Assembly (NCBI RefSeq): GCF_003612055.1
Contig: NZ_RAWB01000006.1
Location: forward strand, 1 to 55,596
Source of the DNA: Corallococcus llansteffanensis
GTDB lineage: Bacteria; Myxococcota; Myxococcia; Myxococcales; Myxococcaceae
Length of the DNA: 55,596 nt
Reading direction: 5' to 3'
Shown: one piece after another, positions 8,750-48,961 of the stretch
Layout of the letters: each line of letters begins with the position of its first letter
Position numbering within the stretch: position 1 is the first letter of the stretch
Notes under the pieces: generated by a model
The model's input: the letters and a program-made list of their open reading frames with translations, nothing else
The model's database searches: none
Told to the model about the DNA's origin: nothing
Translations under genes and position numbers: made by a program

Positions 8750-9235
8750 ATGAATCCGCTCCCGGAGGCTCGCCCACAGGAAGTCCTGCTGTTCACGCTG
8801 GAGCGGCAGCGCTACGGCCTGCCGGTGGAGGACGTGCGCGAGCTGGTGCGCGCGGCGCGCCTCACGCCCCTGCCCCAGGCACCCGACGTGGTGGAGGGCC
8901 TGCTCAACCTGCGCGGCGAATTGCTGCCCGTGCTGGACCTGCGCCGCCGCTTCCGTCACGCCGCGCGGCCCCTGTCGCCCATGGACCACTTCATCGTCGC
9001 CCACGCGGGCCCGCGTCCGGTGGCGCTGCGCGTGGACCGCGCGGAGGGGCTGCACGTCATCGCCGCCAACGAGTGGGACGCGTCTCCTCGCGAGCTGCCC
9101 GGCGTGGGGTACGTGGCCGGGGTCGCGAAGCTGCCGGACGGGCTGGTGCTCGTTCACGACCTGCGCTCGTTCCTCTCCGAAGCCGAGGCGCTGCAACTGG
9201 ACACCGCGCTCGGGGCCCGGCCGGAGCCCGCTTGA
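8750..9235 (+). CDS. cheW: CheW-like coupling protein, first gene of che operon A
   Basis: A 161-residue single CheW domain: QEVLLFTLERQRYGLPVEDV opens the first beta barrel and the conserved NLRGELLPVLDLR follows, the usual CheW/receptor contact segment. It should sit in the cytoplasm between the CHASE3 receptor and CheA of this operon. Its TGA stop overlaps the proposed TTG start of cheR, the first of a chain of overlaps through the operon. A second CheW lies two genes later, as in Wsp-type pathways (WspB/WspD). Confidence 0.85.
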   Translation: MNPLPEARPQEVLLFTLERQRYGLPVEDVRELVRAARLTPLPQAPDVVEGLLNLRGELLPVLDLRRRFRHAARPLSPMDHFIVAHAGPRPVALRVDRAEGLHVIAANEWDASPRELPGVGYVAGVAKLPDGLVLVHDLRSFLSEAEALQLDTALGARPEPA

Positions 9236-10932: not shown

Positions 10933-11546
10933 TGCCGAAGCGCGAGGGAGTCATCGACTGGGAGCGGGCGCACGCCCGGCTGGAGGAGCTGGAGCGCGCC
11001 ACCGAGGCGCGGGACACCTTCACGGACGAGGCGGCCCAGGCGCAGCTCGACGCACGCGCGCGTGCCCTGGCCCGTCCCGCCGAGCTCCCGGTGCTGCCCG
11101 GCAGCCAGCGCGAGGTGCTGCGCTTCCGCGCCTCGGGCCAGATGTACGCGCTGGAGTCGCGCTTCATCCTGGAGGTGATGCGCGCGCCGGAGCTCACCCC
11201 GCTGCCGGGCGCGCCGCCCCTGCTGCGCGGCCTGACGCTGCTGCGCGGAGAGGTGCTGCCCGTGGTGGAGCTGGCGCCGCTGTTCGGCCGGCCCGCGGCC
11301 CAGGCCCAGGGCCCGGTGCTGGTGGTGGGCACGACGCGGCCGGAGCTGGGCCTGCGCACGGATGAGGTGACGGAGGTGGCGGTGCTGACGGGCACGGAGC
11401 TGTTGCCCGCGCCCCCCTCCCTGGAAGAGGAAGCGGGCGCGCTGGTAGCTGGCGTCAGCCCGGACGGCACACTCGTCCTGGAGGGAGAGGCCCTCCTGGG
11501 TGACAGCCGTCTCGTGTTCGAGCTGTCCGAAGAAGGAGTCGCATGA
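10932..11546 (+). CDS. cheW: Second CheW-like coupling protein of che operon A
   Basis: 204 residues: a charged, probably helical N-terminal extension of about 60 residues ([20 protein letters not shown]), then a CheW domain ([37 protein letters not shown]). The extension is typical of WspD-like CheW proteins, supporting an alternative-cellular-function pathway. The ATG shares its A with the cheR stop, and the gene's own TGA overlaps the receptor ATG (ATGA), implying translational coupling. Confidence 0.85.
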
Positions 11547-13186
11547 GCATCGGGAATCGCATCGCGCTGGGATTCGGCCTGTCCCTGCTGGTCCTGCTGG
11601 TGATCGCCGGCGTCGCCTTCCAGGGCGCGCGGCAGCTCACCAGCACCACGGAGGGCCTGCTGACGGCCCACGAGAACTTCCGCATCCTGCGCGAGGTGCG
11701 CGCGCTGCTGGTGGACGCGGAGACGGGGGAGCGCGGCTTCGTCATCACCGGCCAGGACAGCTACCTGGAGCCCTACAACGCCGCGCTCGGCAACCTGCAG
11801 GAGGACCTGTCCGCCCTGCGGACGGCCATGGCGCCCTATCCCGAGCAGCGCTCGCGGCTGGCCCGCCTGGAGCCCATCGTCAACGCCCGGCTGGAGCGGT
11901 TGAGGGAGGGCATCCGCCTGCGTCGCGAGAAGGGCCTGGAGGCCGCGACGGGCGTCGTGCTGGACGGCCGGGGCAAGGAGCTGATGGACCAGGTGCGCGT
12001 CATCATCGGCGAGATGCTCGACACGGAGCAGCAGCGCTGGGAGCGCGACGCCGAGGCCGCGCGGCAGTCCGCCCAGAACAGCCTGTGGGTGCTCGGCCTG
12101 GGCACGCTGCTGGGCATGGCCATCGTCGGCGTGGGCAGCTTCGTCATCACCCGCGGCATCACCCACCCCCTGCGCAAGCTCACCCTGGGCGCCGAGCAGC
12201 TGGGCCGGGGCGAGCTGTCCCACCGCATCGACGTGCGCGGCCGCGACGAGATGGCGGACCTGGCGAGCGCCTTCAACACCATGGCCGAGCGCCGCCAGCA
12301 GGCCGAGGTGCAGCTGGCGAAGCAGGCCGAGCAGCGCGAGCACACGCTCAAGACGGTGGCGGACTTCGTCAACCAGCTCGCGGGCGCGTCCTCCGAAATC
12401 CTCGCCAGCACCACCGAACAGGTGGCCGGGGCCCAGGAGCAGGGCAGCGCGGTGACGGAGACGGTGAGCACCATCGAGGAGATCACCAAGACGTCGGAAG
12501 AGGCCGCCGGCCGCGCGCGCGCGGTGAGCGAGTCCGCGCGCCACTCGGAGGAGGTGGGCCGCTCCGGCCGCCGCGCGGTGGAGGAGGCCGTGTCCGCGAT
12601 GGGCGCCGTGCGCGACCAGGTGGAGTCCATCGCGTCGCGCATCCTCGCCCTGGCCGAGCAGGCCCAGGCCATTGGCGACATCATCACCACCGTCAACGAC
12701 ATCTCCGAACAGACGCACATGCTGGCGCTCAACGCCTCCATCGAAGCGAGCCGCGCGGGCGAGCACGGCCGCGGCTTCGCCGTCGTCGCCTCCGAGGTGA
12801 AGGCCCTGGCGGATCAATCCAAGAAGGCCACCGCGCAGGTGCGCCAGATCCTGGGGCAGATTCAAAAGGCCACCCACGGCGCGGTGATGACCACCGAGGA
12901 GGGGACCAAGAGCGTGTCGTCCGCCACCCGCGTCGTCACGGAGGCGGGCGCCACCATCCAGCAGCTCGCGGACCTGCTCACGCAGGCGTCGCTCACGGCC
13001 GCGCAGATCGCCGCGTCCGCCAACCAGCAGGCCACCGGCATCGGGCAGATCCGCCAGGCGATGCATGACGTGAACCAGGCCACGCAGCAGGGCCTCATCT
13101 CGTCGCGCCAGACGGAGCGGGCGATGCAGGACATCAACGCCATGGGCCAGAAGCTCAAGGGACTGCTCGGGGAGTTCGGGCGCTAG
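11543..13186 (+). CDS. Methyl-accepting chemotaxis protein with CHASE3 sensor
   Basis: 547 residues. First membrane helix at about 7-28; a periplasmic CHASE3 domain follows, recognised by its hallmark [17 protein letters not shown] near residue 53; second helix at about 180-205, HAMP to about 260, then the signalling hairpin with tip [18 protein letters not shown] near residues 398-415. CHASE3 domains sense unidentified extracytoplasmic signals. The cognate partners are the two CheWs and the CheA-receiver of the same operon. The ATG overlaps the preceding stop (ATGA). Only three bases separate its stop from cheA. Confidence 0.92.
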
Positions 13187-13189
13187 GCC

Positions 13190-15349
13190 ATGGATCGCGA
13201 CCGGCTGGCGCAGGCACTGCTGGACTCATTCCTGGAGGAGCTGGAGGGGCACGTCGTGTCCCTCAACCGGGACCTGCTCGCGCTGGAGCAGGCCCCGGCG
13301 CGCGCGCGGGAGCTCATCCCCGGCCTGCTGCGCACGCTGCACAGCGTGAAGGGCGCGTCGCGCGCGGCCAGCGCCAGCCGGGTGGAGACCGCCTGCCACC
13401 GGCTGGAGGAGGTGCTGGAGCCGCTCATCCACGGGCGCGCCCCGTCCCCGGACCTCTTCGAGCTGTGCTTCGCCACGGTGGACGCGCTGGACGACGCGGG
13501 CCGCCGGCTGGCGTCGCGCCAGGACCTGTCCGGCTCGCCGCTGGAGGCCCTGCTGCCCCAGCTGGAGCAGGCGGCGCAGGGCACGCCTCCCCCGGCGCCG
13601 GAGCGCCCTCCGGAGCCCGCGCGCTTCCCCCCCGGGCCCGCGCAGAAGGCCGCCGAGCCGTCGCCTCCCGCCGAGGCGGAGCTGCCCGTGACCGTGGTGC
13701 CCGGCGAGGCGCTGCCGGTGCGCGTGTCCGGGCAGAAGCTGGACGCGCTGCTGGGGCGCAGCGGCGAGCTGCGCGTGGCGATGCTGCGCCTGGAGGGGCA
13801 CGCCGAGTCGCTGGAGTCGCTGCGCGACGACGTCGCCGGGCTCCGGGCCACGGTGCGCGGCACGTCCTCCGAGACGACGCTGCGCCGGGTGGAGCTGGAG
13901 CTGGCGCGGGTGGCGCGGGTGCTGGCGCAGGACCGGCGCGCGCTCTTCCAGTCCTCCACCGGCCTGGACGACGAGGTGCGCCGCTCTCGCATGCTCCCCT
14001 TCGAGGAGGGCTGCACGGGGCTGGAGCGCGCCGCGCGCGACGTGGCGCACGGCCTGGGTCGGCGCGTGCGCCTGGAGGTGCACGGCGGCGGGCTGGACCT
14101 GGACCGCTCCCTGCTCCAGTCACTGCGCGAGCCGCTGCTGCACCTGGTGCGCAACGCGGTGGCGCACGGCCTGGAGGCGCCCGAGGAGCGCGTGCGCCAC
14201 GGCAAGGCCGAGGAGGGCCGCGTGGTGCTGTCCGCCCGGCTCCGCGGCAGCCGCGTGGAGGTGGCGGTGGAGGACGACGGGCGCGGCCTGGACCTGGAGG
14301 CGCTGCGCGAGCGCGCGCGGGCCCGGGGGCTGGAGGCGCCCGAGGACGACGCGGAGGCCGCACGGCTCGTCTTCCTGCCGGGGCTGTCCACCGCGGCGAA
14401 GGTGACGGCGGTGTCCGGCCGGGGCGTGGGCCTGGACGTGGTGCGGGCCCAGGTGGAGGCCCTGCGCGGCAGCGTGGAGGTGGCGTTCAAGGCGGGCCAG
14501 GGCACGCGCTTCACCCTGGACGTGCCCCTCACCTTGAGCACCCTGCGCGTGCTGCTGGTGGACGTGGGCGGGCAGGTGCTGGCGCTCGCGAGCGAGGGCG
14601 TGGACCGGCTCTTGCGCCTGGCGCCCTCCGACGTGCGCGAGGTGGAGGGCCGCATGTCCTGGGTGACGCCGGACGCGCTGGTGCCGCTGGCGTCGCTCGC
14701 GAGCGTGCTGGACCTGCCGTCGGGCCCGCCGCGCGCGCGGCCGTCGGCGGTGGTGCTGTCGGCGGGCACCGCGCAGGCGGCGCTGGTGGTGGACGAGGTC
14801 ATCGCCGAGCAGGAGGTGCTGGTGCGCTCCCTGGGCTCGCGCGTGAAGCGGGCGCGGCACGTGGCCGCCGCGGCGGTGCTGCCGGACGGCCGCATGGCGC
14901 TGCTGCTCAACCCGGCCTCGCTCGTGCGCGCGGCGGGAGGACGCCCGTCCGCGCAGTTCTTCCCCACGCCCAAGGAGCAGGCGGTGCGCAGGCGCGTGGT
15001 GCTGGCGGACGACTCGCCCACGACGCGCATGCTGGAGCAGAGCATCCTGGAGGGCGCCGGCTACGACGTCACCGCGTGCGCGGACGGGGCCGAGGCGTGG
15101 GAGCGGCTCCAGGCCGGCGGCGCGGACGCGCTGGTGCTGGACGTGGAGATGCCGCGCATGGACGGCATCTCCCTCACCGAGACCGTGCGCGCCTCGCCCC
15201 GCTTCGGGCGGGTGCCGGTGGTGCTGGTGACGTCGCGGGAGAAGCCCGAGGACAAGGCGCGCGGCCTCAACGCCGGCGCGAGCGCCTACATCGTGAAGAG
15301 CGCGTTCGACCCGACGAGCCTGCTGGAGACGCTGAGGCGACTGCTATGA
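13190..15349 (+). CDS. cheA: CheA histidine kinase with C-terminal receiver (FrzE/WspE-like)
   Basis: 719 residues. The Hpt domain has phospho-acceptor His51 in LHSVKGASRAAS. After a proline-rich linker come the dimerisation helices, the ATPase (NAVAHGLEAPEERV, DDGRG, GRGVGLDVV) and the CheW-like regulatory domain. The last 125 residues are a receiver with an intact acidic pair (VVLADDSPTTR), acceptor Asp in LVLDVEMPRMDG and the conserved Lys in YIVKSAF. The P2 domain seen in classical CheA is missing. The fused receiver may be the output or a phosphate sink, which fits the absence of a separate cheY. The TGA overlaps the cheB start. Confidence 0.92.
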   Translation: MDRDRLAQALLDSFLEELEGHVVSLNRDLLALEQAPARARELIPGLLRTLHSVKGASRAASASRVETACHRLEEVLEPLIHGRAPSPDLFELCFATVDALDDAGRRLASRQDLSGSPLEALLPQLEQAAQGTPPPAPERPPEPARFPPGPAQKAAEPSPPAEAELPVTVVPGEALPVRVSGQKLDALLGRSGELRVAMLRLEGHAESLESLRDDVAGLRATVRGTSSETTLRRVELELARVARVLAQDRRALFQSSTGLDDEVRRSRMLPFEEGCTGLERAARDVAHGLGRRVRLEVHGGGLDLDRSLLQSLREPLLHLVRNAVAHGLEAPEERVRHGKAEEGRVVLSARLRGSRVEVAVEDDGRGLDLEALRERARARGLEAPEDDAEAARLVFLPGLSTAAKVTAVSGRGVGLDVVRAQVEALRGSVEVAFKAGQGTRFTLDVPLTLSTLRVLLVDVGGQVLALASEGVDRLLRLAPSDVREVEGRMSWVTPDALVPLASLASVLDLPSGPPRARPSAVVLSAGTAQAALVVDEVIAEQEVLVRSLGSRVKRARHVAAAAVLPDGRMALLLNPASLVRAAGGRPSAQFFPTPKEQAVRRRVVLADDSPTTRMLEQSILEGAGYDVTACADGAEAWERLQAGGADALVLDVEMPRMDGISLTETVRASPRFGRVPVVLVTSREKPEDKARGLNAGASAYIVKSAFDPTSLLETLRRLL

Positions 15350-25800: not shown

Positions 25801-27330
25801 ATGCCCCACGTTCCCGCAAGCCCGCGCTCCCGACCTTCCGCCCCGTCCGCACCGGGTGCGTCAGGCCCGAGCCTGCTCGCGCTGCTGGACGGACTGCCGG
25901 AGGCCTTCCTCGCCGTGGACGCCGGGTGGCGCCTCTGCCACCTGAGCCCCCGCATGCGCGAGCTCTTCGCAGGCTGCGTCCAGCCGGGCGACGACGTGCG
26001 CAAGGCGGTAGGCGCCCCGCTCGCCCTGGGCGAACACCTGCGCCTGGACGCGCCCGCCACCGACCAGGCCGCCGTGCGCTACGAGCACCCCTGGCCCGAA
26101 GGCAACCGGTGCTTCGACGTGAGCGCGCGCCCCGTGGAGGGCGGCCTGCTGCTGCACCTGCGCGACATCACCCCCGAGTACCGGGCCCGCCATGAGCTGC
26201 AGCGCGCCGGACAGCTCTTCCAGGCCGTGCTGGAGGGCACCACCGACGCCATCTACATCAAGGACCTGGAGGGCCGTTACCAGGTCATCAACTCCCCGGG
26301 CGCCCGCGCGCTGGGCCGCACCGTGGCGGAGGTGCGCGGCCACTCGGACGGCGAGCTGTTCCCCGCCGACGAGGCCGCCGTCAACCTCCAGCACGACCAG
26401 GACGTGCTCAAGGCAGGCCGCCCCCTCACCTACGAGGACACGCAGCAGAGCCCCGACGGCGAGCGCGTGTGGCTGACCACCAAGGGCCCGCTGCGCGACG
26501 ACGAGGGCCAGGTGTTCGGCCTGTTCGGCATCAGCCGCGACATCACCCAGCGCCGCTGGGCCGAGGAAGAGGTCCGCAGGCACTCCGAGTTCCAGGAGCA
26601 CCTGATGGGCATCATCAGCCACGACATCCGCAGCCCGCTGGGCGCCATCATGAACTGGTCGCGCGTGCTCGCGGCCGGCGGCCCCGCGGAGGAGACGGCG
26701 CGCACCAGCCAGCGCATCGCCACCGCGGCGGTGCGCATCGAGCGGCTGACGCGCCTCCTGCTGGACTTCACCCGCGCGCGGCTGGTGGGCGGCGTCGTCA
26801 TTGAACCGCGCGGCACGGACACCCAGGAGCTGCTGGCCAAGGTGGCGCACGAGTTCCGCGTGGCCTTCCCCCAGCGCCACATCGTCCTGGAGCACAAGGG
26901 CAACACGCAGGGACAGTGGGACCCGGACCGGCTGGCCCAGGTGGTGTCCAACCTGATGGAGAACGCGCTCAAGTACGGCCCGCCGGACGCGCCCGTGCGC
27001 CTGGCCACGCGCGGCCTGCGCAACAAGGTCGTGGTGGAGGTCCACAACCAGGGCCGCCCCATCCCGGAGGCCCTGCTGCCCCACCTCTTCGAGCCCTTCC
27101 GCCAGGGCCCGCAGACGACGCGCACCCTGAAGATGAGCTACGGCCTGGGCCTCTACATCGTGCGCGAAATCGTCCACGCCCACGGCGGCACCATCGAGGT
27201 CGCCTCCACGGAGACCGACGGCACCACCTTCACCGTCACCCTGCCGCGCCGCGCGCCGCCCAAGAAGGGCCCGCCTCCTTCACCACGCGCGGCATGCCGT
27301 ACACCACGCAGGACGACTCCGCCTCCGTGA
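25801..27330 (+). CDS. Sensor histidine kinase, PAS-PAS-HisKA-HATPase
   Basis: 509 residues, no membrane helices. Two PAS domains (residues about 25-125 and 140-255; the second opens FQAVLEGTTDAIYIKD). The H-box GIISHDIRSPLG gives His274. In the ATPase the N-box is NLMENALKYGPP, but the G1 box reads VHNQGRPI, with Asn where Asp normally contacts adenine; GLGLYIVREI is the intact G2 box. The last 20 or so residues (proline- and arginine-rich) are encoded antisense to the end of the convergent cheB, a 95-base overlap, so they are probably not functional. No adjacent regulator; the output is unknown. Confidence 0.88.
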   Translation: MPHVPASPRSRPSAPSAPGASGPSLLALLDGLPEAFLAVDAGWRLCHLSPRMRELFAGCVQPGDDVRKAVGAPLALGEHLRLDAPATDQAAVRYEHPWPEGNRCFDVSARPVEGGLLLHLRDITPEYRARHELQRAGQLFQAVLEGTTDAIYIKDLEGRYQVINSPGARALGRTVAEVRGHSDGELFPADEAAVNLQHDQDVLKAGRPLTYEDTQQSPDGERVWLTTKGPLRDDEGQVFGLFGISRDITQRRWAEEEVRRHSEFQEHLMGIISHDIRSPLGAIMNWSRVLAAGGPAEETARTSQRIATAAVRIERLTRLLLDFTRARLVGGVVIEPRGTDTQELLAKVAHEFRVAFPQRHIVLEHKGNTQGQWDPDRLAQVVSNLMENALKYGPPDAPVRLATRGLRNKVVVEVHNQGRPIPEALLPHLFEPFRQGPQTTRTLKMSYGLGLYIVREIVHAHGGTIEVASTETDGTTFTVTLPRRAPPKKGPPPSPRAACRTPRRTTPPP

Positions 27331-28261
27331 GCACCACGCCCCCCGCGGCGCGCACCGCGCGCGCGCCCACGAGCCCGTCCTCGCCCATGCCGGTGAGCAC
27401 CAGGGCCACGGCGTCCTTGCCCCACCCCGCCGCCACGCTCTCGAAGAGCACGTCCACCGAAGGATGGTGCGGGGTGCTCAGGGGCTGGCGGTCCAGGCGC
27501 ACCAGGTCCAGCGCGCCGTGCCGCTCCAGCTTCAGGTGCATCCCCGCGCGCGCCAGCACCGCGCGCCCCGGGACGAGCTCCAGGCCGTCGCTTGCCTCCA
27601 GCACCTCCAGCGCGCTCAGCGCGTTGAGCCGCTTGGCCACCGCCTCCGTGTAGCCCGCGGGGATGTGCAGCGCGAGCGCCACCGGCGCGGGGAAGTCCCC
27701 GGGCAGCACCGACAGGAGCCGCGTCAGCGCCTGCGGGCCGCCCGTGGACGTGCCCACCGCCAGCAGCTTCGTGGAGGACGCCGCCCCCGTGCGCGCGGCG
27801 CGGACGCCAGCCTCCCCCGTGACCTCCTGCCCGTAGTGCGGCACCGCGCGGCCCGCGACGCGCACCTTCGCCACCAGCTCCGCGCCCAGCTCATACAGCC
27901 GCTCGGTGGCGAGCGCCGTGGGCTTGTGCACCAGGTCCACCGCGCCCGCCTCGAGCGCGGCCACCGCCAGCTCGCTGTCCGTGCCGGTGCTGCTCACCAC
28001 CACCACGCGTGGCGCGTCCGGCATGCCGGCCAGCGCGCGCAAGAGGCCCAGGCCGTCCAGGGCCGGCATCACCAGGTCCAGGGTGATGACGTCCGGCTTG
28101 AGCTCCGCCACCCGCTCCAGCGCGTCCAGCCCGTCGCGCGCGGTGCCCACCACCTCCAGGCCCTCCGCGTCCGACAGCACCTTGCGCAGCACCTTGCGCG
28201 CGAACGCCGAGTCGTCCACCACCAGCACGCGCAAGGGGGGCGCGGACGTCGGGGCCGTCAT
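27236..28261 (-). CDS. cheB: CheB methylesterase, last gene of che operon B
   Basis: 341 residues. Receiver with VLVVDDSAFARK, acceptor Asp in ITLDLVMPALDG and Lys in LVHKPTA. Methylesterase with Ser in AVGTSTGGPQA, His in LALHIPAGYT and Asp in LTGMGEDGLVG, so catalysis should be intact. The ATG overlaps the cheR stop by four bases. It should demethylate the long soluble receptor of this operon. Its 3' end overlaps the convergent kinase gene by 95 bases. Confidence 0.92.
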   Translation of the reverse strand: MTAPTSAPPLRVLVVDDSAFARKVLRKVLSDAEGLEVVGTARDGLDALERVAELKPDVITLDLVMPALDGLGLLRALAGMPDAPRVVVVSSTGTDSELAVAALEAGAVDLVHKPTALATERLYELGAELVAKVRVAGRAVPHYGQEVTGEAGVRAARTGAASSTKLLAVGTSTGGPQALTRLLSVLPGDFPAPVALALHIPAGYTEAVAKRLNALSALEVLEASDGLELVPGRAVLARAGMHLKLERHGALDLVRLDRQPLSTPHHPSVDVLFESVAAGWGKDAVALVLTGMGEDGLVGARAVRAAGGVVLTEAESSCVVYGMPRVVKEAGPSWAARGAAG

Positions 28262-29079
28262 GGGCCCGCCTTGCTGTAGAAGAACGAGCCGCGCCGTTCC
28301 TCGCAGTGCAGCGCTGTACCGAAACGCATCAGGGACTCCGACGTACCCACCAGCAGGTGCCCCCCGGGCTTGAGCACCCGGGTGAGGCCGTCCACCACGC
28401 GGCGCGCGGTGTCGTCCTGGAAGTAGATGAGCACATTGCGGCAGAGGACGGCGTCAAAGGTTTCCGGCGCCGGGTAGTTCGCGCCGTCCATCAGGTTCAA
28501 CTGCCGCCACTCCACCTTCGCCACCAGCTCCGGGCGCACGCGCGGCCGGCTCCCCACGACGTCCAGCCAGCGGCCCTCCACGCCCTTGGGCAGCGCGCGC
28601 AGGCAGCGCAGGTTGTACTCGCCCGTCCTCGCGCGCTCCAGCGCGCGGGTGCTCAGGTCCGTGGCCAGCAGCGACACGTCCGCGAGCACGCCCCTCGCGT
28701 CCAGGAGCATGGCCAGCGTGAGGGGCTCCTCGCCGGTGGCGCAGGCCGCGCACCACACCCGGGGCTTGAGACCGGCGCGCGCCCGGGGCACCAGCACCTC
28801 GTCCACCAGCGCCTCCAGCGCCTGGGGCTCGCGGAAGAAGTACGTCTCGTGCACCAGCAGGGAGTCCACGAGCGCGTCCAGCGCCTCGCTCCCCTTCGGG
28901 TCGTAGCGGAGGAAGTAGTAGTAGTCGAGCAGCGAGTCGAAGCCCGCGTCCAGCGCGCGCGAGGACACCTTCTCCGACAGCAGGTCCCGGTCCTCCGGGC
29001 CGTAGTGCAGCCCGGCACGCTGCTCGATGAGCATCGTCAGGATGGAGAAGACCTGCGGTGACAGCGGCAGCGCGCTCAT
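28258..29079 (-). CDS. cheR: CheR methyltransferase of che operon B
   Basis: 273 residues from the ATG at 29079, 13 bases after the HEAT-protein stop; the open frame upstream overlaps that gene. CheR all-alpha N-domain (VHETYFFREPQ) then the SAM domain (CAACATGEEPLTLA, CRNVLIYFQDD, GGHLLVGTSES). No TPR extension, unlike the CheR of operon A. It should methylate the soluble receptor. Its stop overlaps the cheB start (ATGA). Confidence 0.9.
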   Translation of the reverse strand: MSALPLSPQVFSILTMLIEQRAGLHYGPEDRDLLSEKVSSRALDAGFDSLLDYYYFLRYDPKGSEALDALVDSLLVHETYFFREPQALEALVDEVLVPRARAGLKPRVWCAACATGEEPLTLAMLLDARGVLADVSLLATDLSTRALERARTGEYNLRCLRALPKGVEGRWLDVVGSRPRVRPELVAKVEWRQLNLMDGANYPAPETFDAVLCRNVLIYFQDDTARRVVDGLTRVLKPGGHLLVGTSESLMRFGTALHCEERRGSFFYSKAGP

Positions 29080-29092
29080 GGGCAAGGGCGCC

Positions 29093-31465
29093 TCAACGCC
29101 CCAGCGCCAGCAGGCAGGCACGCCGCACGTCGGCGTCCTCGTCGCGGTGGGCCGCCCGGTCCAGCGCCTCGCGCGCCTCCACCGTGCCCAGCGCCGCCAC
29201 CGCGGGCGCCGTCGCCCGCCGCCCCGCCGGACTGGCGCCCACCAGCGCCTGCATCAGCGCCGCGCGCGCGTCCGCCCGGCGCATGCGCGCGAGCGCCGCC
29301 ACCAGCAGGGGCGCGGTGGTGTCGTCCGCCACCTCCAGCGCCGCCAGGAGCCCCGGCAGCCGCCCGTCCACCGGCAGCGCCAGCGCGCCCACCACCTGCT
29401 CGCGCAGCATCACGTCCCCCAGCAGCGACACCAGCGACTGGGTGGCGTGCAGGCCGGTGCGCGTGGCGAGGAAGCCCACCGCCGCGCTGCGCACGCCGTC
29501 GTCCCGGTCCCCCGCCGCGCGCAAGAGCGCGGGCAGCGTCTCCGGCGCGTCGTACTCCGCCACCGCCGACAGCGCGACGAGCCGCGTGGCCGGGTCCTCC
29601 GAACCCACCGCCTCCAGCAGCACCGGCAGCGCGTCCTGGCGCCGGGCCACGCCCAGCCCCAGCAGCGCCGCGCGGCGCACGTCCGCGTCCGTGGACGAGG
29701 CCGCCCGGCGCAGCGCCGCCATGGCGCTCTCCGTGTGCAGGTGCGCCAGCGCGTCCACCACCGCCACGCGCACCTGGCCCGCGTCGTCGTTGGCCAGCGC
29801 GACGATGGCGTCCGCGGCCGCCTCCTCGTTGAGCTTCCCCAGCGACTGGCACGCGTAGTAGCGCACCCACGGGTCGCGGTCGTTCAGGCCGCCCAGCAGC
29901 GTGGAGGTGATGCGCGCCTGCTTGTCCGTCTGGCCCAGCGCGCGCATGGCCGTGGCGCGCGTGCGCTCGGATTCGTGGCTGGCGGCGGCCAGCAGCGCGT
30001 CCACCGCGCGCGGGTCGTCGATGAAGGGCAGCCCGTAGATGGCCGCGTCGCGCAGCCGCTCGTCCGGGTCCCGCATGGCCAGCAGCAGCGCGTCCAGGCC
30101 GCGCGGGTAGCCGAAGTAGGCCACGATGCGCAGCGCGGCGCGGCGCTGGCGCGTGTCCGGCGAGCGCGCCGCCTCCAGCGCCAGGGTCTCCGTCACCTCG
30201 CTGCCCAGCGACTGGATGGCGCCCACCACCGCCTGCGCCACGCGCGGGTCCTCGTCCGACAGCCGCGCGAAGAGGGCGGGCACCGCGGACGTGTCGCCAA
30301 TGCGCGACAGCGTCTCCGCCGCCAGCGCGCGCACCGTCGCGTCCCGGTCCTCCAGGCACAACAGCACGTCCGGCACCGCGGCGGCCCTGCGGCCCACGAG
30401 CGGCAGCAGGACCCGGCGCCGCGCGCTGTCACCCTCGCGCAGCGCCTGCAGGATTTGAGCGTCCGCCTCCGAGCCCAGCTCCCCCAGCGCCGCCGCCGCC
30501 GCGCGCGACACGCCCAGGTCCTGCGAGTCCAGCAGCTTGAGCAGCCCCGCCGCCGCGTCCGCGCCGCCCACCCAGCCCAACAGCCGCGCCACCGCGGTCT
30601 TCTCCCCCGCGTCCGCGCCCGTGATGACGTGGGCCAGCCTGCGCCCGGTGGGATGGGGCTCCGCCGAACCGGAGCGCAGCATCGAGGGCACCATGCGCGC
30701 GCCGCCGAAGCGCTGCACCTGCGCGTCGTGGATCTCCACCAGCGCCACCGCCGCCGCGCGCACCGCCGCGTCGTTGCCCCGCTGCAGCATGTTCAGGAGC
30801 GCCGGCACCGCGGCCTCCTGGCCGGTGCGGCCCAGGGCGCGCGCGGCCTCCAGGACGTAGAACGGATCCGTCAGCAGCGCCATCAGCGCCGGCACGACCG
30901 TGGGGTCGCCCGAGCGCCCCAGCACGTCGATGGCGGGGAAGATGCGGAAGAAGTTGCCGCTGCCCAGCGAGGCCAGCAGCGCGTCCACCGCCGCGCCGCC
31001 GCCAATGCGGCCCAGCGCCTCGATGGCGGCCACCGCCACGTTGTCGTCCTCGTGCACGGTGAGTCGCGCCAGGAGCGGCACGGACTGGCGGCTGCGGCGG
31101 CGGCCCAGCACCTGCGCGGCGTCACAGACGATGGCCGGGTTGGGGTCGTCGCCCAGCGCCTCCACGGGCGCCTCCACCTCGCCGGTGGCGGCCGCGAGCG
31201 CGTCCACCGCCGCGGCGATGCGCGCCTCGTTGTCCCGCCGGTGGCACAGCACGTCGCACAGCGGCTTCACCGCGGGGGTGCCCAGACGCGCCAGCGCGGA
31301 CACCACGGCGCGGCGCACCGCCCAGCTGGGCGCGTCCAGCCCGGCCACCAGCGCGGGCAGGCTCGCGGGTCCCTGCCGCGCCAGTTGTTCCACCTCCTCC
31401 ACCCGGGCACGGTCGTCCGAGGAGAGGGAAAGGGGGTGCTGCCGCAGGGTCGAAGTCATCGTCAC
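29093..31465 (-). CDS. HEAT/PBS-lyase-like repeat protein within che operon B
   Basis: 790 residues made almost wholly of about 25 HEAT-like repeats of 30-32 residues, each with the pattern D-x-x-V-R-x-A-A-x-x-A-L-G. Examples are [32 protein letters not shown] and [16 protein letters not shown]. No signal peptide or enzyme motif. It should form a long solenoid scaffold that binds proteins. Its start overlaps the receptor stop by four bases, so it is a coupled member of the che operon. From memory, the Myxococcus xanthus Che7 system contains a HEAT-repeat partner (Cpc7) that binds its CheY; this may be the equivalent. Confidence 0.88.
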
Positions 31466-34005
31466 GCTTTCTGCTCCCTGGGGGGACGGGACGCGCCCGC
31501 GTCCTTGCCTCCCAGCAATCCGGTCAGGTGGGACAGCCCCTCCACCTGCTCACCATGAAGTTTCGCGAGCTGCCCCAGCCGGCCCGCCACCTCCTTCACC
31601 TCCTGGGCGGTCACAGCCGAGGTGCGCGCCTGCTGGGCCGTGGTCACGGCGATCTCCCGCGAGCGGCTCCGCATCTCCTCCACCGACCGCCCCACCTGCT
31701 CGGTCACCGTGGCCTGCTCCTGCGCGGCCCGGGCCACGGCCGCCACGCCCGTGGCCTGCTTCGAGGCGGACGTGGTGAGGGCGGCCAGGGCCTCCGTCTG
31801 CTCGTCCAGCGCGCGCGACGTCGTCCTCGCCACGCGGCGCACCTCCTCCGCGCCGCGCACCAGCGAGGAGAGCGCCTGGGCCTGCTCGTCCGTGGCGCGC
31901 GTCACCTCCTGCGCGAGCTTCGCCACCTGGCGGGTGGCCACCTCGCCCTGCTTGAGGGCGCGGCCCTGCTCCACCATCGCCCGCGTGGACTGGGCCACTT
32001 CCTTGCGCGCGTTGTCCATGGCGCGCGCCACCTCCTGCGCGGCCTTCGCCTGTTCGGCGATGCCGGTGAGGGCGCGCTGGGTGGAGGACGTCACCTCCTG
32101 CGCCACCACGCCCAGGGCGGCCACCTGCTGCCCCTGGGCCGTCACGGCGCCGCTCACCCCCTGCACCAACTGCCGCATCTGCACCGCGTTCTTGGCCAGG
32201 TCCGTGGCCGCGGAGGCCTGCTCCTGCATCGCGCGCGACACCTTCTGCGCCACCTCCGACAGCTGGGTGTTGGAGCGCACCGCGTCGCGCAGCGCCTTGG
32301 CCTGGTCCGCGGTGGCCTGGGTGGTCTGCCGCGCCATGCGCCGCATCTCCGTGCCGCTCTGGGCCAGCGCCTGCGCGGCCTGTGCCTGCTCCGTCGCGGA
32401 CGTGGTGATGACCCGCCCCTGCTCGCTCACCTTCGCCGTGGACTGGGCCAGCGCCTGCACCGCCTGCACCTGCTCCGCCGACGCGCGCGATGCCTCGCGC
32501 ACGTTCTGGCCCAGCTCCTCCACGCCCTTGAGGATGGTGCCCAGCGCCTTCTCCGCGTCCCCCGCCAGCGCCGCGCCCTCGTCCGCCGCGCGCACGCCCT
32601 CGCCCGTGGCGGTGGCCGCCTCGCGCGCTGTCGTCTGGAGGCCCCGGACAATCTTGGCCACGTCCGCGCTCGCGGCCGCCGCCCGGTCCGCCAGGGCGCG
32701 GATCTCCTCGGCCACCACCGCGAAGCCGCGGCCGTGCTCCCCGGCCCGCGCAGCCTCGATGCTGGCGTTGAGGGACAGGAGGTTGGTGCGGTCCGCGATG
32801 AGGTTGATGGTCTGCACGATGTCGCCAATCTCTTCAGCGCGCCGGCCCATCTCCTTCATCACCCCGGACGACTCCACGATGGACTGCCGGATGCGGCCGA
32901 AGCCGGCGATGGAGCGCGCCACCGTGACGCCGCCCTCGCGCGCGCTCGAGCCCACGCGTTCGGCGGCCAGCCGCGCCTCCTCCGTCATCTGCGCCGCGCG
33001 GCGCGTGGACGTCTCCAGCTGCGCGGACGCGGAGGCGCTGGTGGACGCCAGGCTGTTGATGCTCTCCGCGGCGCGGGCCACCGCCTGGGCGGAGCGCGCC
33101 AGCTGCTCGATGGTGGCCGCGTTGGCGTCCACCACGGCCGCGTTCTTCTCCGACGTGGCGGCCACCTCCTCCACGCTGGCGGCCACCTCCTCCACCGTGG
33201 ACGCGGTGGACCCCACGTGCGTCTCCAGGGCCCGCGCGTGCTCCGCCACACCGCGCACGCTGCGCGCGACCTCCTCCGTGGTGGAGGCCGTCTCCTCCAC
33301 GCTGGAGGCCATGCTGGCCGCGTCGCGCGAGACTTCATTGAGCGTCTTGCCCAGGGACACGACGGCGCTGGACACCTGCCCCATGCGCTCGCCCACGCCC
33401 TGCGCGTCCGACGACAGCCGGGAGATGCCCTTGGACATCTCCTCGATGGTGGCGGCCACCTCTTCCGTGGTGGCGGCGCTCGTCTGGTTGCGCACCACCA
33501 GGTCCTCCACCGTGGCGTTCATCTCCTGCACGCTCGCGAGCAGCTCCTCGCTGGAGGCGGCCAGCTCCTCCGCGTTGGCGCTCACGCCCTTCACCGAGCG
33601 CGCCACCTGCTCCACCGTGGAGGCCGTCGCGTCCGAGGAGCCGGCGAGCAGCGCCGCGTCCTTGCGCACGCTGGCCACCGACGCGGCCACCTCCTGCATC
33701 GCGCCCGCGGTGGCCTCCGCCTCCTGCTGCACGCCCCGGGCGGACTCGCTCATCGAGCGCTGGTTGCGCACCAGGGACTGCACCGCGGCGCTCGTCTCCT
33801 CCACCTGGGCGGCCACCGACTCGATGGCGGTGCGCACCTGCTCGCCCGACGCCGCCTGCTCGTTGCCCGCCGAGGCCAGGCGCGCCGCGAGCAGCTCCGT
33901 GGACTGCACGAGCCCCGCGCTCTCCTCCACCTTGGCCGCCGTGCGCTCGGCCAGCGCACGGGCATCGTCCAGGCGGGGGGCGCTGCTACCGTTGTCCGTC
34001 GACAT
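31462..34005 (-). CDS. Soluble all-coiled-coil chemoreceptor of unusual length
   Basis: 847 residues with no membrane helix, no HAMP and no recognisable sensor fold. The sequence is heptad-rich Ala/Ser/Glu/Gln throughout. The signalling tip [18 protein letters not shown] is at residues about 417-435, the exact middle, leaving about 416 residues before and 420 after. The N-terminal arm has repeated Glu-pair blocks resembling methylation sites ([39 protein letters not shown]). If helical throughout it would be a hairpin of roughly 60 heptads per arm. It should act in a cytoplasmic array with the CheW and CheA of the operon. Its start lies within the cheW gene (20-base overlap). Confidence 0.9.
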
Positions 34006-34432
34006 TCGCAGTCTCCTCCCCCACCACGCGGGGGAAATCGATGAGCATCACCAGCCGCGGGCCCACCTGCGCCACGGCCTTCACGAAACCCTTCGCGCCC
34101 TCCACCACCATGGGCGGCGGCGGCTGGATGGTGCGGGGGTCCAACTTCAAGACTTCCCGCGCGCTGTCCACGAGCAGCCCCACCGTGCGCTCGCCCAGCT
34201 GACCCACCACCACCCGCGAATCCAGCGAGCGCGTCCCGGGCGGCAGGCCGAAGCGCGTCCTCGCGTCCACCACCGGGATGACGCGGCCGCGCACCTGCAC
34301 CAGCCCCGCCACGTGCGCGGGCGCGCCCGGCACCGGCGTGGCGCCGGAGAAGGACTCCATCTGCACCACGTCCGCCGCGGGCATCGCGTACTCGGTCCCG
34401 TCCACCTTGAACAACACGTGCAGCACGCTCAT
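33986..34432 (-). CDS. cheW: CheW coupling protein of che operon B
   Basis: 148 residues from the ATG at 34432, which overlaps the cheA stop by four bases. Complete CheW domain: [20 protein letters not shown], then [19 protein letters not shown], then [11 protein letters not shown]. It joins CheA to the long soluble receptor. The longer open frame upstream is the antisense-like third frame of cheA and is not used. Confidence 0.9.
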
Positions 34433-36504
34433 GACACCCACTCCCCCGGACGCGCCGCGCCCTTGCGGCGAACCCCGTGCGCCGCGCCGAGCGCGCCCAG
34501 GTCCAGCACCAGCGTGGGCTTGCCATCTCCCAGGTCCGTGGCGCCCGCCACGCCCGGCACGCGCACCAGCGGGTCCTCCAGGGGACGCAGGACGATCTCC
34601 TGCTGGCCCAGGAGCCGGTCCACCGCGAAGGCCACCGGCTCCCCGCGCTGCCGGACGATGAGCGCCTTGGCGCCCCGGCTGACGCCGGCCTGCGCTGGCG
34701 CCGTGCGGCCCAGCAGCCGCTCCAGCGACAACAGCGGCACCGCCGCGCCCCGCCGCTCCACCAGCCCCAGGCCGTCCGCGCCCGCCGGCCGCACCACGCG
34801 CAGCGCGTCCACGTCGATGAGCTCCTCCACCGTGCCCACCGCCACCGCGTACTTGAGGCCCGCGCATTCGAAGACGATGGCGTCCACCAGCGTCACCGTG
34901 AGCGGCACGCGCAGGGTGAACGTGGTGCCCGCGCCCTTGCGCGTCTCCATGCGCAGTTCGCCGCCCAGCTGCTCCACGACGATGCGCCGCACGATGTCCA
35001 TGCCCATGCCCCGGCCGCTGGTGCTCGTGGCCTCCTGGCGCGTGGACAGCCCGGGCCGGCACAGCAGGTCCAGCAGCCCGTCCACCGACTCCGGCACCGG
35101 CGCGTTCGCCGCCTTCGCCACCGCCTTCGCGTCCACGCCGCGGCCGTCGTCGCGCAGCGTGATCTCCAGCTGGCCGCTGGAGCGCGCGTGGCAGCCCAGG
35201 TGCACCAGCCCCTCCGGGGGCTTGCCCGCCGCGACGCGCTCCTCCGGCAGCTCCAGCGCGTGGTCCACCGCGTTGCGCACCAGGTGCACCAGCGCGGGCA
35301 GCAGCCGGTCCGCCACGGCCTTGTCCAGCTCCGCGTCGCCCACGTCCAGCTCCAGCCGCACCGACTTGCCCGTGGTGCGGCGCAGCCCGCGCACCAGCAG
35401 GGGCAGCCGCTCCAGCACGTCGCCCACGCGCACCATGCGCAGGCGCAGGATGGCGGAGCGCAGGTCGCGCAGCTGCCGGCCGTTCTCCTGGAGGATGGCC
35501 GTCAACTCCCGCGTGGGGGCGCCCGTGGCCGTGAGCGCCGTCACCGCGCGCGTCAGGCGGGAGCGGTTGACGACGAGCGCCGCCAGCCACTCCATGGCCT
35601 CGTCCAGCCGCGACACCTCCACGCGCAGCAGGCCGCCGCCCCGGCGCACCTCCGGCTCCTCCATCTCTTCTTCGGCCACGGCCACGGGCACGGCCGTGGG
35701 CGGCAGCGGCGCCAGGGGGACCGCGGCCTCTTCGGGCGCGTCCGCTTCCAGCGAGCGCACCGTGGCGGGAGCCCCGCCCACCGCGTCCAGCAGCGCCGCG
35801 TCGTCCGAGGAGGTGATGAGCAAGAGCGCGAACGCGAGCGAGGCCCCGCCCGCGGCGGCGCCGGACAGCGGCAGCACCTTCACGATGTCGCCGAGCTTCG
35901 CCACGCGCTCGCGCACGGTGTTGATGGTGAGCCCCTGGGCGGCGCGCCCGGCGGAGGGCACGAAGTCCAGCCGCACCGCGCGCTGCCCCGCCGCGAGCCC
36001 GGCCTCCAGCTGCCCGCGCTCCGACGGCGCCAGCTTCGAGGCGAACGCGGCCTCCGCGTCCAGCACCACGCGCCGGGGCTGGGGGGGCGCCGCCTCCAGC
36101 ACGTGCGGGCCCAGGGCCTCCAGCCGCTCCAGCAGGTTCGCCGGCGCGGGCGACGCCGGCTTTCCGGCGCCCAATTGCCGCACCCGCTGCTCGATGGCAC
36201 GCAGCCCCTCCACCAGCGGCTCCACGCTGGACTCGGGCAGGCGGCCTCCAGCCTGATCCGCCAGGCGCAGGGACGTCTCCATCCAGTGGGCCACGGAGAC
36301 GATGGGCTCCACGTCCACCATGGCGGACAGGCCCTTGATGGTGTGCAGGGCGCGGAACAGCTCACGCACCGCGCGGGGCTGGGCCGCGCCCCGGCGCACG
36401 GCCTCCTCCACGGCAAGCAGGTCGCGCTGCGCGGAGGCGAGCAGCTCATCCACCTCCGCCAGATAGGCGGGGAGGAACTCCGCGAACTCCACGGACGTCG
36501 TCAC
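34429..36504 (-). CDS. cheA: CheA histidine kinase of che operon B
   Basis: 691 residues. Hpt domain with His54 in ALHTIKGLSAM; a second, P2-like region follows (residues about 150-235), then the dimerisation helices, ATPase (NAVDHALELPEERV, DDGRGVD, GRGMGMDIVRR) and CheW-like domain to the C-terminus. Unlike the CheA of operon A it has no receiver, which agrees with a separate cheY just upstream. Start and stop both overlap neighbours by four bases. Confidence 0.92.
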   Translation of the reverse strand: MTTSVEFAEFLPAYLAEVDELLASAQRDLLAVEEAVRRGAAQPRAVRELFRALHTIKGLSAMVDVEPIVSVAHWMETSLRLADQAGGRLPESSVEPLVEGLRAIEQRVRQLGAGKPASPAPANLLERLEALGPHVLEAAPPQPRRVVLDAEAAFASKLAPSERGQLEAGLAAGQRAVRLDFVPSAGRAAQGLTINTVRERVAKLGDIVKVLPLSGAAAGGASLAFALLLITSSDDAALLDAVGGAPATVRSLEADAPEEAAVPLAPLPPTAVPVAVAEEEMEEPEVRRGGGLLRVEVSRLDEAMEWLAALVVNRSRLTRAVTALTATGAPTRELTAILQENGRQLRDLRSAILRLRMVRVGDVLERLPLLVRGLRRTTGKSVRLELDVGDAELDKAVADRLLPALVHLVRNAVDHALELPEERVAAGKPPEGLVHLGCHARSSGQLEITLRDDGRGVDAKAVAKAANAPVPESVDGLLDLLCRPGLSTRQEATSTSGRGMGMDIVRRIVVEQLGGELRMETRKGAGTTFTLRVPLTVTLVDAIVFECAGLKYAVAVGTVEELIDVDALRVVRPAGADGLGLVERRGAAVPLLSLERLLGRTAPAQAGVSRGAKALIVRQRGEPVAFAVDRLLGQQEIVLRPLEDPLVRVPGVAGATDLGDGKPTLVLDLGALGAAHGVRRKGAARPGEWVS

Positions 36505-36908
36505 CCGCGCGACGCCTCGTCCTGGGGCTTCGCGTCCTGGGGCTTCTCCAGGAGGGCCCGGGCCGCGCCCTGGATGGAGTCCGGAGTGAAGGGCTTGGTC
36601 ATGAAGCGGTTCGCGCCGGCCGCGAGCGCCCGCTCGCGGGACGCTTCATCCCCGCGGGTCGTGACGATGATGATGGGCAGCGAGCGCAGGTGGTCCTGGC
36701 CCCGCACGAACTCCACGACCTCGATGCCCCCGATGTCGGGCATGTTGAGGTCCAGGACGAGCAGGTCATACGGCTTGAGCGACAGCTGCTCGATGGCCTC
36801 CAACCCGCTGGACGCCTGCGTGAAGCGGCTCTCCGGGTAGGGGCGCAAGCAGGCGACGACCATCTCGCGCATCACCTTGCTGTCATCAACGACGAGTACC
36901 TCGGGCAT
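36501..36908 (-). CDS. cheY: CheY-like response regulator, first gene of che operon B
   Basis: 135 residues, a complete receiver: VLVVDDSKVMRE with the acidic pair, acceptor Asp in LLVLDLNMPDIGG, Thr switch in IIIVTTRGDE and Lys in FMTKPFTPD. The last 15 residues are a charged tail. AGAGGA lies six bases before the ATG. As the promoter-proximal gene it is the likely phosphorylated output of the CheA that follows, perhaps through the HEAT protein. Confidence 0.9.
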   Translation of the reverse strand: MPEVLVVDDSKVMREMVVACLRPYPESRFTQASSGLEAIEQLSLKPYDLLVLDLNMPDIGGIEVVEFVRGQDHLRSLPIIIVTTRGDEASRERALAAGANRFMTKPFTPDSIQGAARALLEKPQDAKPQDEASRG

Positions 36909-37062
36909 GGCGTCCTCTGGAAACGACCGACCAAGCTAGAACGATTCCGGTCTGCTGAAAGAAATGAGTCACCACGCACACGCCAAGCGTTGGTTTCTCC
37001 ACGCACGTTACTCCGGTGTGTCACGAAGGCCCGCTGCTTCCCAAGGAATCGAACCCAAAGCC
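36909..37062. promoter_or_regulatory. Divergent promoter region of che operon B and REC-PAS kinase
   Basis: This 154-base divergent gap must hold the promoter of the seven-gene che operon B (minus strand) and of the kinase at 37063 (plus strand). It is visibly more AT-rich than its surroundings (for example CTGAAAGAAATGAGTC near 36951). No sigma-54 or other defined motif is found. Confidence 0.5.
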
Positions 37063-38625
37063 ATGCGCTTGCCTCCCTCGCCGCCCACCTCCGCCTTCCC
37101 CCGACCGAGGGGGTCCGACGCATCGGCGGAGGAGGCCGCACCTCGTGTGTGGGTGGTGGACGATAGCGCCAGCGAGGCCCGCTTCATCAAGACGGCGCTG
37201 GGAACGGGGTTCCAGGTGGAAACGTTCCCGGACGGCGCGGCGATGCTCGAACGCCTGCACTCCGGGCGGGCACCGGACGTGGTGGTGCTGGACTGGGAGA
37301 TGCCGGGGATGTCCGGCCCGGAGGTCTGCCAGTTCCTGCGCAGCCAGCCGGAGATGGAGGTCCTGCCGGTGCTGATGCTCACCGCGCACAACCGGCCGGA
37401 GGACCTGGTGCTGGGGCTGCGCGCGGGCGCCAACGACTACGTGGCCAAGCCCTTCCGCACGGAGGAGGTCCGCGCGCGGGTGAACGCGCTGGTGCGCACC
37501 AAGCGGCTGGTGGACGAGGTGCGGCGCGCGGACCGGGAGAAGGCGGAGGCGCTCGCGCAGCTGGACGCGCTCCTCATCTCCTCGCCGGTGGGCCTGTCGC
37601 TGCTGGACCGGGACCTGCGCTTCGTGCGCGTCAACGCGCGGATGGCGATGCTGGACGGGCTGCCCCTGGACGCCTACGTGGGCAGGACGCTCGGGGAGGT
37701 GCTGCCCCGGATGGCCCCCCGGCTGGAGCCCGTCCTGCGCCGCGTGCTGGAGACGGGCGAGCCCGTGGAGGAGCTGGCGTTCTCCATGAAGCAGCCGGGC
37801 GCGGCTCCCGACGCGGACGCCGCCGGCAGCGAGCTGCACCTCATGGTGGGCTTCCACCCGGTGCGCACCACCGGGGGTGAGGTGGTGGGCGTGGGGACGG
37901 TGGTGGTGGACGTCACCCGGCACAAGCAGGCGGAGACGGAGCTGCGCGCGGCCGCGGAGTTCCGCGAGCGCTTCCTGGGCATCGTCGGGCACGACCTGCG
38001 CAACCCCCTCAACGCCATCCGCATGTCGGCCAGCTTCCTCATCGCCAGCGAGCAGATGCCAGCGCCGCTGATGCGCACCGCGGGGCGCATCGTCAGCAGC
38101 GCGGACCGGATGACGCGGATGATCACCGAGCTGCTGGACTTCACCCGCAGCCGGCTGGGCGGCGGCATCCCCCTCACGCCGGGCGCCATGGACCTGGGCG
38201 GGTTGGTGCGCCAGGTGGTGGAGGAGCTGGAGCTGGTCCACCCGAGCCGCGTCGTGAAGGTGACGTCCACCGGGACGCTGACGGGCCGGTGGGACGCGGA
38301 CCGGCTCACCCAGGTCTTGAGCAACCTGGTGAGCAACGCCCTCCAGTACAGCCCCCCGGACAGCGTCGTGGAGGTGTCGCTCCAGGGCGGGCCGGAGCAG
38401 GTCGTCGCGCGGGTGGCCAACCCGGGCGAGCCCATCGCGCCGCAGGAGCTGGGCCTGCTCTTCCACCCCTTCCAGCGCGCGCACACCGGCGCGCACGTGC
38501 CATCCGGGCTGGGCCTGGGGCTCTTCATCTCCCAGCAGATCGTCCGCAGCCACCGGGGGACGCTCACCGTGGAGTCGGACGCGGCGCGGACCGTCTTCAC
38601 CCTGATGCTGCCGCGTGGGAGCTGA
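37063..38625 (+). CDS. REC-PAS-histidine kinase
   Basis: 520 residues from the ATG at 37063. An N-terminal receiver (VWVVDDSASEAR, acceptor Asp in VVLDWEMPGMSG, Lys in YVAKPFRTEE) precedes a short coiled coil, a PAS domain (residues about 175-300), the H-box GIVGHDLRNPLN with His310 and an ATPase. The G1 box is degenerate (VANPGEPI), while GLGLGLFISQQI is intact. No membrane helix. The receiver at the N-terminus means the kinase is itself controlled by another kinase. It resembles the protein at 51544 in every domain. Antisense overlap is absent. Confidence 0.9.
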   Translation: MRLPPSPPTSAFPRPRGSDASAEEAAPRVWVVDDSASEARFIKTALGTGFQVETFPDGAAMLERLHSGRAPDVVVLDWEMPGMSGPEVCQFLRSQPEMEVLPVLMLTAHNRPEDLVLGLRAGANDYVAKPFRTEEVRARVNALVRTKRLVDEVRRADREKAEALAQLDALLISSPVGLSLLDRDLRFVRVNARMAMLDGLPLDAYVGRTLGEVLPRMAPRLEPVLRRVLETGEPVEELAFSMKQPGAAPDADAAGSELHLMVGFHPVRTTGGEVVGVGTVVVDVTRHKQAETELRAAAEFRERFLGIVGHDLRNPLNAIRMSASFLIASEQMPAPLMRTAGRIVSSADRMTRMITELLDFTRSRLGGGIPLTPGAMDLGGLVRQVVEELELVHPSRVVKVTSTGTLTGRWDADRLTQVLSNLVSNALQYSPPDSVVEVSLQGGPEQVVARVANPGEPIAPQELGLLFHPFQRAHTGAHVPSGLGLGLFISQQIVRSHRGTLTVESDAARTVFTLMLPRGS

Positions 38626-48645: not shown

Positions 48646-48687
48646 CCGGTGTGCTCCTCTCCAGCGTGGATTGAGGGAGCACACCGG
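48646..48687 (+). terminator. Perfect 12-bp hairpin after the immunity gene
   Basis: CCGGTGTGCTCC and GGAGCACACCGG are exact inverse complements separated by 18 bases, starting 44 bases after the Imm52 stop. No T run follows. It may end the toxin/immunity transcript or be a structural remnant of a mobile cassette. Confidence 0.55.
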
Positions 48688-48689
48688 GA

Positions 48690-48870
48690 TGGCCGAGCTA
48701 TTACGCTGGCGCCTACTGGACCGGACGACATGAATCGGTCGAGCGGGCCTGCAGCGGGACGACTCCTCTCCTCACTGACGCTCTCCCAGCTCGTGAGCAC
48801 CCTGGCGCTGGCCTGGGAGCCGGAGTGGGGCATCGCCACTTCTGTTGCATGTGTCATTGGCGGAGACAGT
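48690..48870 (+). pseudogene. Decayed second Imm52 immunity gene
   Basis: At 48699 the frame reads YYAGAYWTGRHESVERACSG, clearly homologous to the start of the intact Imm52 protein (YYAGAYWGPRRETAEECA). After a one-base shift near 48770 the plus-one frame reads LALAWEPEWGIATS, matching the intact protein's MVHSWEPDWAFAMS, which lies about 100 residues further on. So the middle is deleted, the frame is broken and the end is lost. The sequence stops at the right 61-bp repeat. Confidence 0.72.
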
Positions 48871-48900
48871 GCGCGAGCTGTTGGACGGAGCAGGGTTGCC

Positions 48901-48961
48901 GCGCTAGCGCTGCTGGATCATGTCCCGGATCCGCGTGGCCAGCGCCTCCATGGCGAAGGGC
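48901..48961. repeat. 61-bp direct repeat, right copy (attR candidate), within the hybrid kinase 3' end
   Basis: The intact partner of 43963-44023. It begins at the palindrome GCGCTAGCGC that contains the hybrid kinase stop codon and covers its last 20 codons. Left of it the sequence bears no similarity to the kinase tail that flanks the left copy, so the homology ends sharply on both sides. Confidence 0.85.

Follow-up and report, generated by a model that had tools for sequence, protein, structure and literature searches.

A Cpc7-type HEAT-repeat protein in the Che7 operon of a Corallococcus-type myxobacterium and a co-inherited receiver-kinase subfamily

The operon and its HEAT-repeat gene

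The window, i.e. the whole stretch of 55,596 nucleotides that was analyzed, contains a chemotaxis operon with the gene order cheY-cheA-cheW-mcp-HEAT-cheR-cheB, all genes lying on the minus strand. By domain searches and ORF analysis, cheY7 (36501-36908) encodes a single-domain response regulator of 135 aa. Domain searches assign Hpt, dimerisation, ATPase and CheW domains, and no receiver domain, to the 691-aa product of cheA7 (34429-36504). The genes cheW7 (33986-34432, 148 aa) and mcp7 (31462-34005, 847 aa) follow, the latter specifying a cytoplasmic chemoreceptor in which no transmembrane stretch was found, the highest 19-residue Kyte-Doolittle mean being 1.08. The stop codon of mcp7 overlaps the start of the HEAT gene (29093-31465, 790 aa), which was identified from the ORF list, Pfam, orthology and a structure model. 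The operon is closed by cheR7 (28258-29079, 273 aa when counted from the ATG at 29079) and cheB7 (27236-28261, 341 aa). The cheR7 ORF extends back to a GTG at 29121; the tables of PMC3945109 give 273 aa for CheR7 of Myxococcus xanthus. A second che cluster is present at 8716-15349 and consists of CheW, CheR, CheW, a CHASE3-HAMP receptor and a CheA-receiver fusion. In composition it matches Che6 of M. xanthus as tabulated there, and the Che6 and Che7 systems of M. xanthus likewise carry neighboring locus numbers (PMC3945109).

The HEAT gene is read from the minus strand and is predicted to start with GTG; an in-frame ATG lies two codons downstream. The plus strand of the same interval offers only an unrelated reading. 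The G+C content at the three codon positions (0.82/0.53/0.97) follows the pattern of the neighboring che genes. A comparison with the Corallococcus sicarius ortholog gave 99 differences, which fall mostly on third positions (26/15/58 at positions 1/2/3). Thus, the gene is coding. The closest named relatives of the window are C. sicarius and Corallococcus sp. CA053C (96%). Ten stretches of the protein matched Pfam HEAT_2 with an E value of 6.9e-96. A plasmid search with the HEAT query returned partial matches only, none of them covering 80% of the query at one place. A reading as part of a defence system was dropped, as PADLOC gave nothing beyond generic HEAT matches.

At the junction with mcp7, the TGA of the receptor gene and the GTG of the HEAT gene share four bases (...GCGTGACGATG). 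The initial annotation had pointed to this HEAT start within the receptor stop codon as translational coupling. The overlap was confirmed, but the coupling is ordinary, because the same kind of overlap is seen in most loci at three more of its junctions. Overlaps were scored by script in a set of 40 loci (L053-L092) and in a second set of 49 loci (L093-L141), the two sets sharing genomes. In the former, the script placed the receptor-HEAT overlap in frame in all loci but one, i.e. in 39, of which one was falsely assigned (L086, where the receptor frame is broken). The frame is clean in 38 of the 40, and the junction sequence itself is present in all of them, L084 and L086 included. The second set gave 44 of 49. 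The same four-base overlap was seen at cheY/cheA (35/40), cheA/cheW (38/40) and cheR/cheB (38/40), and was rare at cheW/mcp (7/40) and HEAT/cheR (1/40). Coupling is thus a property of the operon as a whole, with no sign of a special link between the HEAT protein and the receptor.

The fold was predicted with AlphaFold from 44 aligned sequences (the window protein and 43 orthologs), and the resulting model reached a pLDDT of 91.7 and a pTM of 0.81. It contains 49 helices of at least 4 residues, one of which is long enough for two. This amounts to approximately 25 helix pairs and bears out the number of repeats originally counted from the sequence. The figure of "27 alpha-helices" given for Cpc7 in a review (PMC11514114) is at odds with the 49 helices of the model. 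The best PDB matches were designed or scaffold HEAT solenoids. Fold matches were obtained with alphaRep (4zv6_A; VIA Z 26.2, 277 residues, rmsd 6.2) and PP2A-A (2iae_A; VIA Z 21.4, 456 residues, rmsd 8.9); the likeness to alphaRep and to PP2A-A/importin-like solenoids is that of a generic fold and carries no functional information.

Conservation alternates from helix to helix along the solenoid. In residues 48-214, the first helices of the pairs score 0.80-0.95 and their partners mostly 0.50-0.65; in residues 500-635, the first helices score 0.78-0.88, and most partner helices overall lie at 0.50-0.70. The generic HEAT motif accounts for part of this conservation. The concave face of alphaRep proteins is lined by the helix that corresponds to the conserved one. 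The alternation, taken together with this position, suggests that in the modeled solenoid the conserved helices line the groove and form two conserved patches (around residues 48-214 and 500-635). These helices are putative binding sites, and one of the patches would hold CheY7.

Orthology and co-inheritance with Che7

The tables of PMC3945109 list the M. xanthus Che7 components as CheY7 (MXAN_6965, 125 aa), CheA7 (MXAN_6964, 683 aa, without a receiver domain), CheW7 (MXAN_6963, 148 aa), Mcp7 (MXAN_6962, 821 aa, without a transmembrane domain), CheR7 (MXAN_6960, 273 aa) and CheB7 (MXAN_6959, 348 aa). The operon of M. xanthus AM003 (L102) has the same gene order as that of the window, and its CheY (125 aa), CheW (148 aa), CheR (273 aa) and CheB (348 aa) agree exactly in length with the published proteins. 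The CheA and Mcp ORFs exceed the published lengths (687 versus 683 aa and 850 versus 821 aa; PMC3945109), as from other choices of start codon. Between mcp and cheR, AM003 carries a HEAT ORF of 788 aa that is 79% identical to the window protein over residues 5-790 of the latter. When the window's own genome was searched with the HEAT protein, only one match reached E ≤ 1e-60, in keeping with a one-to-one ortholog. By elimination, the M. xanthus HEAT gene is MXAN_6961, the sole free number between MXAN_6962 and MXAN_6960, and we infer that MXAN_6961 is cpc7. Judged by sequence, the window operon is the orthologous Che7 operon of a Corallococcus-type myxobacterium and goes beyond mere similarity. 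The connection with Che7 of Myxococcus, originally proposed together with the suggestion of a synteny comparison, was therefore correct and is stronger than had been stated, since the two operons are orthologous.

Cpc7 of M. xanthus is described in a review as a HEAT protein that interacts with CheY7, the interaction regulating development (PMC11514114). This agrees with the earlier guess that the HEAT protein connects CheY to a non-flagellar output. Che7 is elsewhere said to be associated with a HEAT protein and to couple aggregation and sporulation, and CheA7 and CheA8 are reported there to be involved in the phosphorylation of an orphan regulator (PMC9040617). No published account of the HEAT protein interacting with CheA or with the receptor was found.

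The distribution of the gene was surveyed in 484 genomes, comprising a phylum set of 195 and a class set of 289 around the Sorangium genome G195. Cut-offs were E ≤ 1e-40 for HEAT and E ≤ 1e-90 for CheA7 in the phylum set, and E ≤ 1e-60 for HEAT in the class set. HEAT and CheA7 were each found in 50 of the 195 genomes, and both in 49; the corresponding numbers for the class set were 32, 34 and 31 of 289. In each of the six discordant genomes (G009, G017, G458, G259, G363 and G385), the lone match is located at or near a contig end; for G259 and G363, another short contig was found to carry the half of the operon with cheR and cheB. In the che7 operon of G358, most of which is kept, HEAT is almost entirely gone and CheR lacks its N-terminal part: the HEAT start runs straight into the C-terminal part of CheR (L155, 11109-11627). 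A real deletion or an assembly fault are both possible, and a run of N is found elsewhere on the same contig. Apart from contig ends and G358, the HEAT gene and the che genes thus occurred together throughout. Of the conserved but little-known che module that had been proposed, the conservation stands in both genome sets; the HEAT component is Cpc7, which was already published and is little known rather than new.

The gene order is kept in 39 of the 40 loci L053-L092, and the remaining locus begins inside cheA. In the set L093-L141, which includes Sorangium, Polyangium and Minicystis, the operon is complete and in order in 40 of 49 loci; the other nine are seven loci cut by contig ends, L125, where HEAT stands before cheY, and L137, which is a fragment. 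In both L125 and L137, HEAT comes first and a divergent receiver-kinase gene lies directly upstream. This arrangement indicates that the position of HEAT in the module is not fixed.

Three loci stand out by the labels of their records. A complete Che7-HEAT-kinase module was observed in a metagenome-assembled genome (MAG) labeled Bdellovibrionaceae (L111; 3.5 Mb, with only one HEAT candidate in the genome) and in another labeled Planctomycetota (L116; 10.1 Mb, label doubtful), which suggests transfer of the whole module. A record titled Comamonas sp. KCTC 72670 (L105) holds a Myxococcus-type che7 operon with 79% HEAT identity; its Comamonas label is probably wrong.

Distances between HEAT proteins track those between the other Che7 proteins with r values of 0.89-0.97, the highest being that with the MCP (r 0.967). 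With a mean pairwise identity of 74%, CheY7 is better conserved than any other protein of the operon (55-64%), which would be expected if it has several partners. Conservation within CheY7 is highest in helix 1, helix 2 and the active-site strands. The face by which CheY7 reportedly contacts Cpc7, alpha4-beta5-alpha5, is not its best-conserved part, so that conservation of this face was dropped as an argument for the contact. The flanks of 16 loci, with 90 predicted genes, showed no recurrent non-kinase output gene beside che7; the exceptions are a few groups of only two genes that loci have in common, for the most part loci of Sorangium strains.

A receiver-kinase subfamily linked to Che7

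Divergent from cheY7, a plus-strand gene at 36964-38625 encodes a sensor kinase with a receiver (37132-37503) near the N terminus followed by PAS, HisKA and HATPase domains, as found by domain and profile searches. A receiver-kinase is the next-door gene in 33 of the 40 loci of the set L093-L141 that have at least 1.7 kb of upstream sequence. Whole-protein orthology of this neighbor proved unsuitable as a marker: the best match of the window kinase was the che7-adjacent gene in G134, G421, G436 and G267 and was another gene in G195, G026 and G196, and no match passed E 1e-40 in G198, G199 and G380. The receiver domain alone separated cleanly. A profile (A3) made from nine che7-adjacent receivers splits the adjacent kinases into one group with 132-206 bits and one with 35-43 bits. 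The low scores belong to a gene that in Myxococcus and relatives lies upstream of the operon in the same direction (MXAN_6966 type); on account of these scores, it was set apart from the module. An adjacent high-scoring kinase is present in 32 of the 49 loci L093-L141; 11 loci (Myxococcus, Pyxidicoccus and Hyalangium group) are without one, and six are without sequence on one or both sides.

In the window's genome, the kinase at 36964-38625 ranks first (165 bits), followed by a kinase on another contig (149 bits) and by a second member in the window (48649-53154, plus strand; 147 bits), whose receiver at 51568-51933 lies upstream of PAS-HisKA-HATPase; none of the further receivers exceeds about 100 bits. 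In M. xanthus, a gap in the scores follows the only member, which is unlinked to che7 (150 bits), and no receiver above about 99 bits was detected in two che7-free genomes in which 150 candidates each were scored. At 53617-55590, the window holds another receiver-PAS-kinase gene with the length and domain layout of the MXAN_6966-type gene immediately upstream of M. xanthus cheY7. In the window, approximately 15 kb of other genes separate it from the che7 region.

With a threshold of E ≤ 1e-32, which was picked after the gap in the scores had shown, and with 22 or 14 candidates scored per genome in the two surveys, the subfamily was found in 52 genomes of the phylum set and 36 of the class set. 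Every genome with HEAT or CheA7 (51 and 35, respectively) is among the carriers, and the only others are G358, with its damaged che7 operon, and G118. In other words, the subfamily, whose receivers sit at or near the N terminus of PAS-histidine kinases, is present in 87 of 87 Che7 genomes and in 1 of 397 others, counts that are not phylogenetically independent and for which Fisher tests ignore phylogeny. In G118, no che7 was found, and its receiver is the weakest match of its set (120.8 bits). Ten subfamily members, mostly ones encoded apart from the operon, were scanned, and all proved to be kinases. The receiver profile shows no variation at Asp55, Thr85 and Lys107, so that the receiver could be phosphorylated by the CheA of the system. 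A partnership between this receiver-kinase and Che7 was not found in the open-access literature, which leaves the main Che7 papers aside.

A proposed pathway, its rivals and known systems

Most probably, the window carries a cpc7 ortholog in a Che7 operon in which CheY7, seated on the groove of the HEAT solenoid, steers development and not a motor. The cytoplasmic receptor Mcp7 would, together with CheW7, control CheA7, which would phosphorylate CheY7, a regulator without an output domain. CheY7 would then bind the concave groove of the solenoid and change what the solenoid holds, presumably a further client. The processes steered in this way would be development and sporulation, in place of the rotation of a flagellar motor.

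The HEAT protein might instead be a structural part of the Che7 array that scaffolds CheA7, CheW7 and the receptor and conveys no output signal. Its gene directly 3' of mcp7 with the four-base overlap, the distance correlation that is strongest with the MCP, and a cytoplasmic receptor needing some organiser would all fit. This role is nevertheless unlikely, because the review names CheY7 as the partner (PMC11514114), such overlaps are usual across the operon, and in L125 the HEAT gene lies before cheY and away from mcp. Far less credible still is an enzyme subunit of the PBS-lyase type (CpcE/NblB) acting on a bound cofactor. The NCBIfam matches to NblB (E 7e-30) and CpcE (E 3e-24) that would speak for it fall well short of the curated cut-offs (104 of 300 and 86 of 330 bits), as for any HEAT_2 protein, and the best structural matches are the solenoids named above.

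As for the receiver-kinase, it may be a mere passenger, gained and lost over time along with the che7 region. Linked loss is indeed to be expected wherever the two are adjacent, i.e. in the 32 of 49 loci, and the survey counts share ancestry. In genus g37, however, the subfamily kinase lies outside the che7 neighborhood in the genomes looked at (e.g. M. xanthus G098 and G082), yet it is present in 22 of 22 species with che7 and in 0 of 5 without; genus g27 gave 6 of 6 versus 0 of 1. In several lineages, moreover, a subfamily kinase stands directly behind cheB and is co-directional with it. We therefore regard the passenger explanation as improbable.

Accompanying kinases of this kind would form a second tier of Che7, each serving as second kinase or as phosphate acceptor of the same pathway. 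We lean toward the view that Che7, Cpc7 and the receiver-kinase subfamily make up an obligate module, in which either CheA7 phosphorylates the receiver or the HEAT protein binds the receiver as well as CheY7, so that one cytoplasmic array would control between one and four kinases per genome. What is new here is the breadth and strictness of the co-inheritance of HEAT and Che7, and the linked kinase subfamily. The HEAT partner is essentially constant in the Che7 systems of Myxococcia and Polyangia and of two MAGs labeled as other phyla, and is no single-species oddity. The co-inherited kinases are testable candidates for what follows CheY7 and Cpc7 and bear on how spore development, rather than a motor, came under the control of an array of the chemotaxis type.

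With Che7 of M. xanthus, the window operon shares the gene order, the protein sizes, the position of HEAT between mcp7 and cheR7, a receptor without a transmembrane domain and a CheA without a receiver. The two differ in the gene beside cheY7, which is a subfamily receiver-PAS-kinase in the window and a different receiver-kinase in AM003 (REC 42.7 bits), where the subfamily member is encoded elsewhere. A further parallel is Che3 of Rhodospirillum centenum, a non-flagellar che pathway for cysts with a second kinase, CheS3; CheA3 phosphorylates the CheS3 receiver, and CheS3 phosphorylates CheY3 (PMC3868531). By analogy, a CheS3-like second kinase is our best guess for the gene at 36964-38625. 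Both have a receiver near the N terminus, a PAS domain and a kinase, and both would belong to a che pathway of dormant cells. CheS3, however, is of the HWE type and has two receivers (PMC3868531), whereas the window kinases, with HisKA and HATPase_c domains, are of the HisKA type. A HEAT protein, of which the account of R. centenum Che3 makes no mention (PMC3868531), is present in Che7.
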